Source of the DNA: Methanosarcinales archaeon | GTDB taxonomy: Archaea > Halobacteriota > Methanosarcinia > Methanosarcinales > Methanogasteraceae | Direction of reading: 5' to 3' | DNA: 35,193 bases | Assembly: GCA_004211975.1 (NCBI GenBank) | Contig: RXIK01000146.1 | Span: 1-35,193 of the forward strand | Shown here: piece after piece, positions 18,749 to 35,079 of the stretch | How the letters are laid out: every line of letters starts with the position of its first letter | Position numbering within the stretch: the first letter of the stretch is position 1 | Notes under the pieces: generated by a model | What the model was told of the DNA's origin: nothing | Database searches by the model: none | The model's input: the letters and a program-made list of their open reading frames with translations, nothing else | Program-made: the position numbers and the translations under genes

Positions 18749-19022
18749 ATTCTTATTTATAAATTTGTATCGAATCCATCCTCTGCTCCATCAGTAGTAG
18801 TTCACATCCCCTACAATAAAACCCCTCCCTTCCACGTATCTCGCATAAATCATCCTCACATCAACCATCATCGACCAAATCCCCGCCTTCACCCCGAGAC
18901 TGTCACGCCATCTGGTGTTGCAGAAGATCCGATGCTGCAGAAAATGTTCCGCCATATAGCAAGTGTTGTATCTCCAAATCAAAAACAAACCTATGTTTCA
19001 ACTCCATATTCAAAAATGATCC
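18749..19022. other. Intergenic stretch with a solo element end
   Basis: No convincing gene. It contains GACTGTCACGCCATCTGG at 18898-18915, which matches in inverted form the end of the repeat at 35028-35045 and resembles the start of the MITE-like element at 19023. A 65-codon open frame here (18791-18988, minus) has no ribosome site and spans that repeat end, so it is not called. Confidence 0.5.
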
Positions 19023-19256
19023 GGGACTGTCACGTCATCGGGGGTTATATGAGATCCCACGAATCTGTTCAAGTGAGTTGTAGGAGAAATCTGTGTAATC
19101 CGTGTTAATCTGTGGCTAAAAACTTTTGTCAGCCACAGATTTCACAGATGGACACAGATTACAGGTTATTTACCACAAGAGATTTCATGCTATATCTGAG
19201 TTCATCCGACCGCACCACCTGCAAGGATGACCCAAGCACCAAGTAATGTGACAGCC
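19023..19256. mobile_element. MITE-like element, copy 1
   Basis: A 234-bp non-coding unit beginning GGGACTGTCAC and ending GTGACAGCC, so the ends form short inverted repeats. Inside is the 30-nt-arm hairpin AATCTGTGT ... ACACAGATT (19088-19160). About 230 bp align with 29219-29472 at high identity, including the shared GAGATTTCATGCTATAT and CATCCGACCGCACCACCTGC. No transposase is encoded. This copy lacks a clear target duplication and has a short deletion relative to copy 2. Confidence 0.75.
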
Positions 19257-29209: not shown

Positions 29210-29481
29210 GGCATCCGGGGGACTGTTACGCCATCCGGAGTTACATGAGGTTCCATGAATCGGTTCAAGTGAGTTACAGGAGAAATCTGTGTGATCCGTG
29301 TTAATCTGTGGCTAAAAACTTTTGTCAGCCACAGATTTCACAGATGGACACAGATTACCGGTTATTTACCAAAGAACTCGATCCATTCAAGAGATTTCAT
29401 GCTATATTTAAGCTCATCCGACCGCACCACCTGCAAGGATATGGTCCAAGCACCACATAATGTGACACCCCTGGCATCCGG
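29210..29481. repeat. 9-bp direct repeats flanking the element
   Basis: GGCATCCGG occurs at 29210-29218 and again at 29473-29481, exactly bordering the MITE-like element. This fits a target-site duplication made on insertion. Confidence 0.7.
29219..29472. mobile_element. MITE-like element, copy 2
   Basis: 254-bp non-coding unit, starting GGGACTGTTACGCC and ending GTGACACCCCT, with the internal hairpin AATCTGTGT ... ACACAGATT (29285-29360). It aligns nearly throughout with copy 1 at 19023-19256; an extra 16 nt near 29380 is absent there. It is bordered by a 9-bp direct repeat and ends about 60 nt before the valS start, so it may influence or supply part of that promoter region. Confidence 0.8.
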
Positions 29482-29531
29482 AAAGTTTTATCAGTCATCG
29501 TTTTAATCGAAAAGATGTAAAGGAGATGACC

Positions 29532-32201
29532 ATGCAGGACACACTTCCAAAGGAATATGATCATCATGCAGTCGAGCAAAAATGGCGATCCGAGATCGAT
29601 CAGGACATCTATCGATTCGACTGGGAATCAAACAAGCCACAGTACATCATTGATACGCCACCCCCATATCCCACGGGGAATTTGCATATTGGAAATTCGT
29701 TAAACTGGTGCTATATTGATTTCGTGGCAAGATACAAGAGAATGTGCGGATACAACGTGATGTTTCCGCAGGGGTGGGATTGTCACGGCTTACCGACCGA
29801 GGTTAAGGTTGAGGAGACCCACGGGATCACCAGACACCAGATCCCGCGGGCAGAGTTTCGGAAACTATGCATGGAACTAACCGCAAAAAACATCACAACA
29901 ATGAAGGAAACCATGCGGCAGCTCGGGTTCTCCATCGACTGGAACTGCGAGTACGTAACCATGGACCCCGCATATTATGGCAACACGCAGAGGTCGTTTG
30001 TCAGGATGCATGAAGGTGGCATGGTGTACCAGCGAGACGGTCCTGTGAACTGGTGTCCACGATGCGGGACCGCAATCGCGTTTGCAGAGGTCGAATACGA
30101 CGACCGAAATACTATGCTTAACTACCTATACTTTGGAAACCGGGACATGGAGATTGCAACCACCAGACCCGAACTGCTTGCCGCATGTGTCGCGGTTGCA
30201 GTGCATCCTGATGACAAGCGGGTTTCACAGCACATCGGCGGCACGGTCCAGGTACCGCTCTTTAATTATGAAGTGCCCGTGATCGCTGATGCAGAGGTCG
30301 ATCCCGACTTTGGAACGGGCGTCGTCATGATCTGCACGTTTGGAGATAAGCAGGATGTGCGATGGTGGATCGAGCACAATCTCCCGCTTCGCATGGCAAT
30401 TGACCGCTGCGGAAAGATGACCGAAATCGCAGGGAAATACGAGGGAATGAGCATCGCCAAATGCAAAGAATCAATCACAGCAGACCTTGAATCCGCGGGG
30501 CTGTTATACAAGCAGGAGCCTCTGGCGCAAAACGTCGGGATGTGCTGGCGATGCAACACCCCAATCGAAATACTCTCAGAAAAACAGTGGTATGTCAAGG
30601 TCGATCCGAACAAGATCCTGCAGACCGCAAACAAGACCGAGTGGGTCCCGCCACACATGAAGATACGGCTTGAGAACTGGACACGAAGCATGGAATGGGA
30701 CTGGTGCATATCCCGCCAAAGGCTCTTTGCAACCCCAATCCCGGTATGGTACTGCAAACAATGCGGACTTGCAAGGGTGGCAGACGAAGAATGGCTGCCC
30801 ATCGACCCAACAGCCACAAACCCCCCGGAGGGAACCACGTGTAAGTGCGGCTCAACCGAGTTTCTGCCCGAGGAAGACGTGCTGGACACCTGGATGGACT
30901 CCTCCATCTCGGCAATGTCAGTTTCAGGCTGGCTATTCGGACGCTCACCAGATCAAGCAGGACCAACCGGACCCGGAACAGGGCAGAACGGGCTGAAACT
31001 ACCCACACAGCTCAGACCACAGGGACACGACATCATCCGCACATGGGCGTTTTACACGATCCTGCGAACAGAGGCACTCACCGGAGTTGAGCCATGGGAA
31101 ACAATACTGATCAACGGAATGGTGCTCGGAGACGACGGACACAAAATGAGCAAATCACTGAACAACACAGTTGCGCCCGAAACAGTGATCAAACAACACG
31201 GCGCCGATGCATTCCGACAATGGGCTGCAATCGGAGGATCAACCGGATCAGACATCATGTTCAGATGGAAAGATGTTGTTGCAGCATCACGTTTCCAGCA
31301 GAAGATGTGGAGCATTGTCAGATTCACGCTGCCACACACCCATGACGCAGGAGACGCAGACAATGCCAGCAACACTTCACTCACAGCAATCGACCGATGG
31401 ATATTAAGCAAGCTAAACACACTGATCAAAGACACAACCGACGCAATGGACCAGTACCAGTTCGATCTTGCACTAAAAATGACCCGGTCATTTGCATGGG
31501 ACGTTCTTGCAGACAACTACATCGAACTTGTAAAGCACCGACTATACGGCGAACCATCACCCGACCAACAGGCAGCAAGACAAACACTGAAGACAACAAT
31601 CGATACGATCACAAAGCTACTTGCCCCAATCACACCGTTCTTTGCAGAAGAAATATACACACAACTTCACGCGTCCACAGAGGGAAGCATACATAAAAGC
31701 ACATACCCAACCGCCAACACAACAATGATCGATCCGGACGCGGAACAAGAGGGCGAACGAATCAAAAACATCGCTCACGAAATCCGGAAATACAAATCAG
31801 AGCACGGAATAGCACTGAACGCACCACTTCAAAACATCGAAATATATACCAACACCGTATTCCCGCCATCAGACATCACTGGCGCCGCAAACACCCCCGT
31901 ACAAGTGATCACGGGAACACCCAATTTCGAGCACCGAGCAGTCGGCATCAAGCCAGACATGAAGGTGCTCGGCCCAATATTCAGGAAAAATGCTGGAAAG
32001 ATCATTAAAGCACTGTCAGAAATCGATCCTGCTGATGCTGCCCGGCAGGTGAGTGCCGGCGGCACGATACAGACCGAAATAGGTTCGGAGGCCTTCAAGA
32101 TCCCGGCGGATGCGGTTGCGATCGAGCGAGAAGTTGTTCTTGGCGGCAAGACCGTGGACGTGCTTGAGGTGGACGGTGCAACCGTTGTGATCACGCGGTG
32201 A
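29532..32201 (+). CDS. valS: Valyl-tRNA synthetase
   Basis: 889-residue class I synthetase that charges tRNA-Val. The HIGH-type motif is [19 protein letters not shown] (HIGN), followed by [18 protein letters not shown]. The KMSKS motif is [12 protein letters not shown]. The editing (CP1) domain includes [17 protein letters not shown] and zinc-like CWRCNTP and CPRCG pairs. The C-terminal anticodon-binding domain runs from [20 protein letters not shown] on. The ATG at 29532 is preferred over ATG 29526 because the AAAGGAG site then has a 6-nt spacer. The MITE-like element ends just upstream. The two ribosome-proximal TATA-like strings GTTTTATC and GTTTTAATC lie at about 29487-29508. Confidence 0.96.
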
Positions 32202-34349: not shown

Positions 34350-34922
34350 AAAGCGGAAATCATTTTTGCCCGGTGGTTATTTATACTGCAACGCTTGATG
34401 ATATTTCCCTGAATTTTCTGGATTGAGACATGGGTATGCCAAGCAATCAAAAGTCAATATAAATTCCGAGCATCCAACCTTGATGCTCCGTTTTTCAAAA
34501 CGGGGTTGTTGACTTCGAGAGGTTGGCACGAGTGTTACACGCGGAGGTCGGGTTGAGTCGGGTATGGGCAGAAGGGTTTTGTGAGGTGGGGCGATGGATC
34601 TGACATTCCGCAGGTCGCTATCCATTTTTCATAATTTCTACTGATAGTGGTTTTAAACATTTAAAGAATATTATTGTTATACTGTGGTGGAATAGTCTAT
34701 CCAATTTCAACCGATGAGGCTTCACATGTCCATGTAAAAAATATATATTTTAATAAAGTGATTATCTTAAAAACCCCAAAATCGCAAGCATCAGCCACTA
34801 TTCACCATTTGCAAAAAATAGATCTTTTTGTAAAAACACGTGCGGAATGTTCGATGGATGGCGGTATTCTCGAAATCGTTCGGATACGCTCCAATGATTG
34901 AGAGGGATATATACTTACACGG

Positions 34923-35045
34923 GGCTGTCAACTTACGTGGTGTTGAATCGAAACTCTAATTTTTCCAGATACTCAAACCCGAAGCGGCAGATACGAGACC
35001 CAAATCAAGATATGCTTCAAAACAACGCCAGATGGCGTGACAGTC
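34923..35045. mobile_element. Short element with GACTGTCAC-type ends
   Basis: About 123 bp between GGCTGTCAACTTACGTGG and the inverted end, whose reverse complement reads GACTGTCACGCCATCTGG. The ends pair over about 20 nt with roughly two thirds identity. The right end is nearly identical to 18898-18915. It encodes nothing obvious. It is a possible further member of the MITE-like family. Confidence 0.45.
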
Positions 35046-35079
35046 ACCCTATGGGCTTGCCAGAAAACAATCTATTAAA

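Follow-up and report, generated by a model that had tools for sequence, protein, structure and literature searches.

A 254-bp MITE lying just upstream of valS in an uncultured, ethane-oxidiser-type archaeon of the Ca. Argoarchaeum/GoM-Arc1 family belongs to a family of elements whose position beside promoters, as the evidence below supports, is not accidental: the whole family appears to insert at a fixed distance from promoters. The new point is this choice of target, i.e., a fixed spacing to an archaeal TATA/BRE. Very probably, the MITE is mobilised in trans by a Mutator-superfamily IS distantly related to ISH6, the transposition of which would be targeted to sites upstream of archaeal core promoters. 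In three archaeal families, the sequences document that the elements are mobile, produce a target site duplication (TSD), have ends in common and empty sites in relatives, and keep a fixed spacing with a biased orientation. The open-access literature that was searched contains no report of an archaeal IS with a fixed TATA spacing, or of a counterpart using the archaeal TATA/BRE. The window, i.e., the whole 35,193-nucleotide stretch analysed, contains this MITE together with several related elements (Table 1).

Results

Architecture of the element upstream of valS

The unit upstream of valS is supported as a MITE, i.e., a non-autonomous, IS-mobilised element with a 9-bp target duplication: it is short and non-coding, carries inverted terminal repeats and a TSD, occurs in multiple copies, and has its ends in common with an autonomous element (the IS ends of the relatives G016 and G009). 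The first-pass annotation had described a MITE-like unit of this length without a transposase, bordered by an exact 9-bp direct repeat and containing a long internal hairpin, and each of these features proved real. Its inverted ends were borne out as an inverted repeat but not as a perfect match, the two ends being imperfect repeats of each other (left, GGGACTGTTACGCCATCCGG; right, read inward, GGGGTGTCACATTATGTGG). Folded as DNA, the whole 254-bp unit gives z = -2.05. The hairpin itself (AATCTGTG.../...CACAGATT) is found alone in many genomes of the family (relatives G001-G016), and because it occurs there without MITE ends, it seems to be an independent dispersed repeat that was captured by the MITE.

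Table 1. Coordinates of the MITE, the adjacent valS locus and related elements in the window
Feature	Position	Strand	Remarks
TSD, left copy, GGCATCCGG	29210..29218	+	Exact repeat; TSD statistics
MITE, right end toward valS	29219..29472	+	254 bp; own genome has 37 or more distinct right-end copies, boundaries common to copies
Left terminal repeat	29219..29242	+	Homologous to IS left end of G016 and G009
Internal long hairpin	29282..29358	+	Also dispersed on its own in relatives (matches there are partial, query 64-149 only)
Right terminal repeat, CACCACATAATGTGACACCCC	29452..29472	+	IS right end of G016 is CACCACGTAATGTGACAGCCT
TSD, right copy, GGCATCCGG	29473..29481	+	Exact repeat; TSD statistics
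Predicted valS core promoter, AAAG TTTTATCA (BRE + TATA box)	29482..29493	+	Begins directly after TSD
valS (class I tRNA synthetase)	29532..32201	+	Pfam tRNA-synt_1; start inferred from relatives
Left-end remnant of autonomous IS	18896..19022	+	Aligns with the left end of the IS in G015, G016 and G009; directly abuts second MITE copy
Second MITE copy	19023..19256	+	Identity 85%; TSD not recognisable
Short element, about 126 bp, same two ends, different interior, no hairpin	34922..35047	-	End patterns, sequence

Copies, target duplications and empty sites

The host genome is a MAG of 2.66 Mb in 249 contigs, 87% complete, and its contigs are broken by repeats. Searching it with the MITE gave 40 scored matching stretches with identities of up to 96%, many contigs ending inside a copy, and the right-end pattern occurs 41 times as against 0 for the reversed control; together these counts exclude a chance origin. 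Exact matches to the MITE ends are also present in named records (Ca. Argoarchaeum ethanivorans, GoMArc1 and a Methanosarcinales MAG). When the unit and its ends were searched in its own genome and in relatives, as the first-pass annotation had advised, the ends coincided with copy boundaries elsewhere: the boundaries are sharp and common to many copies, and the duplications differ from copy to copy (e.g., GATACCGGT, CCTCTATAT, GAACGTGCG, GGTTTTCCG). A recognisable TSD-like match of 8-10 bp flanks 15 of the 30 complete copies, compared with 0.46% of swapped left/right flank pairs.

Empty sites were likewise sought in relatives, and precise ones were found. The site of the MITE copy L003 is empty in G015, a genome of the same genus, with a single GATACCGGT; for the IS copy L141, four relatives have a single ATAGTTTT(G/A) together with a conserved TATAAATA; valS loci without the element are described below. 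Among the joined empty-site queries only these two worked, the other tested copies giving either no junction-spanning match or a partial one only. The unit has evidently spread by transposition.

Of the further elements in the window, the homologue noted earlier at 19023-19256 is a true second copy, and its fusion with the adjoining IS remnant (18896-19256) is perhaps a product of deletion or recombination. The short element at 34922-35047 represents a second class (about 123-130 bp) with the same ends and no hairpin, found also as L038, L103, L108 and L110; L108 apparently derives directly from the IS by internal deletion. Neither this short element nor the 19023 copy shows the TATA spacing described below. 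Another dispersed repeat, of the AAAAAATCGAGTAAAAACTGCCCT(T/C)CGGG type, is abundant in the genus (flanks of L002 and L014, and many places in G013-G016).

An IS with the same ends and its transposase

An IS with the same terminal repeats, the existence of which the first-pass annotation had thought worth checking, is present in the same genus. The C-terminal part of a transposase, including the second catalytic D, CIFH and the catalytic E (TTDH, CIFH, ENYYRQT), is encoded on contig C157 of G016, and 16 bases past it lies the right end CACGTAATGTGACAGCCT, identical in many MITE copies; contig C95 of the same genome carries the IS left end. MITE-like left ends also precede a transposase gene in G009. 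Of the 238 genomes of the class, 14 contained transposase homologues. In the well-assembled genome G133, the IS is present in seven full-length copies, which have a reading frame of 415 aa and TSDs of 8-9 bp; the empty site of one of these seven occurs in four relatives.

In the transposase of L131, the D-D-E triad consists of D187, D244 and E360, with a D2-E spacing of 116 aa, and the C(2)H motif is CIFH, with C263 located 19 aa after D244. Prokaryotic Mutator-like (p-MULT) transposases are defined by a D-D-E triad with an insert of 99-138 aa between D2 and E, and by C/D(2)H 11-19 aa after D2 (PMC3942029). Since both the spacing and the motif fit this signature, we assign the enzyme to the Mutator superfamily of DDE transposases, where it is, by its profile scores, distantly ISH6-like. 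Its best NCBIfam match is ISH6 (NF041731), at 33.7-36.4 bits and far under the cut-off of 240 bits; the ISLre2 and ISKra4 models give 15-20 bits (cut-offs 200 and 205) and the IS256 model NF033543 gives 20.6 bits (cut-off 150), and a PDB sequence search with the transposase returned nothing relevant.

No transposase gene was found in the 249 contigs of the 87% complete own genome, and the IS left-end remnant is present there; we infer that an IS with the same ends supplies the transposase for the MITE in this lineage. In the related genome G015, ten contigs (C5, C73, C136, C165, C170, C182, C214, C232, C263 and C301) break off some 80-140 bp into a left or right end of the IS, a pattern suggestive of several recent, full-length copies of the IS that the assembly collapsed. 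Distant transposase homologues (27-31% identity) lie on plasmids of Halococcus dombrowskii and Methanosphaera sp., where they are annotated only as transposase or hypothetical protein.

The valS locus

At valS, the element is followed by GGCATCCGG, AAAG and TTTTATCA in this order, the ATG at 29532 coming 46 bases after the start of TTTTATCA, and a GAAAGTTTTATCA-type block upstream of the gene is conserved across the family, in 14 of 15 loci, just past the insertion point. The conserved start is probably this ATG and not 29526, so that the gap between element and gene is 59 bp. The predicted core promoter is left intact, the MITE stopping just upstream of the conserved BRE/TATA and replacing the sequence formerly upstream of about -45 of valS. 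An effect of the MITE on valS expression is possible and, because the core promoter appears uninterrupted, would have to act through the lost or altered upstream sequence.

Two genomes of the same genus, G014 and G016, have valS loci without the element. In a third, G015, a relative of the element (L156, contig C199) ends at nearly the same place upstream of valS; as it is different and shorter (about 118 bp), it suggests an independent insertion, and one valS promoter target may have been used repeatedly, in different species.

Fixed spacing between the right end and a putative TATA box

Reading outward from the right end, 4 bases of the element end are followed by the 9-base TSD and then by the motif cAAagcTTATATAc, which looks like an archaeal BRE plus TATA box; the order at the target is element right end, 9 bp (TSD), about 5 bp (BRE) and TATA box. 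We defined a strong TATA match as at least 6/8 to TTTATATA starting at flank positions 17-21, the boxes being predicted from sequence. Such a match is present in 30 of 83 non-redundant right flanks, a set that admits pattern matches with up to 3 mismatches and of which a few may not be true ends, versus 3.9±2.0 in shuffles (at most 11 in any of 300), while other 5-base windows give 0-4. The signal is found both in the own genome alone (13/37 vs 1.2 in other windows) and in the relatives alone (17/46 vs 1.0), and about half of the right flanks have no strong TATA match at the expected place.

In a within-family cross-validation, a motif trained on half of the flanks scored highest at the expected offset in 54% of the other half, compared with 14% of shuffles. 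The same motif was applied to IS copies of two other archaeal families at offsets 11-16, a range already fixed by the training step, and gave 9/17 vs 2.5±1.5, with 0 of 1000 shuffles reaching 9 and the peak again at offset 13; an earlier test with narrower offsets (12-16) had given 5/17 vs 2.0 (P 0.03). Left-end flanks carry little or no motif signal (12/54 vs 9.5 expected, and 2/10 vs 1.5). Since the promoter is on the left side in a few copies (e.g., L017 and L019), the orientation is a strong bias, not a rule. The duplicated 9 bp are variable and have no clear consensus. Distances from the TATA box to the first ORF were left out as too noisy, the first possible start codon having been taken.

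Discussion

Proposed mechanism and alternative readings

In the mechanism that we propose, a Mutator-superfamily IS with the same ends would mobilise the MITE in trans, its transposase would join the element's right end to the DNA a short distance ahead of an archaeal core promoter, and a staggered cut would produce the 9-bp duplication. The element would then land upstream of genes in a preferred orientation, with both core promoter and coding sequence kept whole. That the unit is instead a conserved, non-mobile regulatory hairpin or terminator (or ncRNA) beside valS might be thought from its strong internal hairpin between two co-oriented genes, but it is contradicted by about 40 copies at unrelated sites, by TSDs, by empty sites including orthologous valS loci without the unit, and by the absence of any matching Rfam family at the site, and its probability is negligible. 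Mobilisation by a different IS (e.g., IS256-type) with merely similar ends is very unlikely: MITE and proposed IS have just about 20-28 bp per end in common and no helper turned up in the MITE's own genome, yet this IS agrees with the MITE in both ends, in TSD size and in its distance to the promoter, and the window contains its left end, whereas an IS256-type helper was rejected as the genome has no Transposase_mut (PF00872) match. Equally improbable, in our view, is an insertion at random after which only copies upstream of core promoters survive selection and mimic targeting. Most copies are intergenic, and it would be costly to disrupt a coding region or, as at valS, a core promoter; such selection would, however, allow any larger TATA distance, whereas the single peak observed at 13-14 bp from the element, with background beyond it, argues for a measured distance, and in three families the peak is seen on a single side of the element.

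If targeting is real, the promoter may be recognised via contact with TBP/TFB or via the DNA itself. The transposase could read the DNA directly (a bendable AT-rich TATA or BRE) with no TBP/TFB contact, a possibility to which we give somewhat less than an even chance; the signal is a sequence motif at a fixed distance, and ISH6 relatives prefer an AT-rich AANATNTT duplication (PMC3942029). On the other side, the conserved part lies outside the consensus-free 9 bp and resembles BRE plus TATA, the footprint of TFB/TBP, although this is compatible with direct reading too. The furthest-reaching reading is that the TBP/TFB preinitiation complex acts as a tether for the archaeal IS transposase and thereby fixes how far upstream of a core promoter IS and MITE copies integrate; it is tentative, its likelihood falling just below even.

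Significance

Insertion upstream of promoters is an apparent way to spread without breaking genes. Promoter-directed transposition is known from bacteria (sigma-A promoters) and yeast (Pol III genes), and archaea would join this list with a family that measures its spacing from TATA/BRE, which would suggest that such a safe-landing strategy evolved repeatedly inside the Mutator superfamily. Such a family would help to show how the basal transcription machinery is read by a transposase, and it might be developed into a tool for inserting DNA in archaea; where uncultured archaea lack transcript maps, its insertion sites point to candidate core promoters.

Comparison with known systems

The closest functional parallels are TnGBS and ISLre2 (p-MULT 3) and the ISKra4 group (p-MULT 4), which insert 15-17 bp upstream of sigma-A promoters with their right end toward the promoter (PMC3942029). 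Like them, the archaeal family has a Mutator-superfamily DDE transposase, a fixed-distance insertion upstream of promoters, a right inverted repeat beside the promoter, and an asymmetry between left and right ends that goes with orientation. The target differs, being the -35 region of bacterial sigma-A promoters in those elements and a BRE/TATA-like motif about 14 bp from the right end here, and the resemblance is functional only, the transposase scoring weakly with the ISLre2 and ISKra4 models. With ISH6 (p-MULT 2), the family shares its best NCBIfam match, archaeal hosts and a similar DDE organisation; unlike ISH6, for which an AT-rich duplicated motif AANATNTT was described and promoters merely speculated about (PMC3942029), it scores far under the model cut-off and duplicates 9 bp without the AANATNTT consensus.

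As with prokaryotic MITEs in general (reviewed in PMC10969869), the element is short, has no coding capacity, and combines terminal inverted repeats, a TSD and a high copy number with the ends of an IS; unlike them, its position is locked to archaeal core promoters and it carries a captured hairpin repeat. The analogy with yeast Ty3, already noted for TnGBS, ISLre2 and ISKra4 by the authors who described their targeting (PMC3942029), is again one of function, i.e., integration next to a transcription start, which Ty3 achieves via the TFIIIB machinery (PMC3942029). Ty3 is an LTR retrotransposon, in contrast to the archaeal element, whose contact with TBP/TFB is hypothetical; with a chance that we would place a shade under even, a tethered archaeal IS would be the DNA-transposon counterpart of Ty3-TFIIIB targeting.
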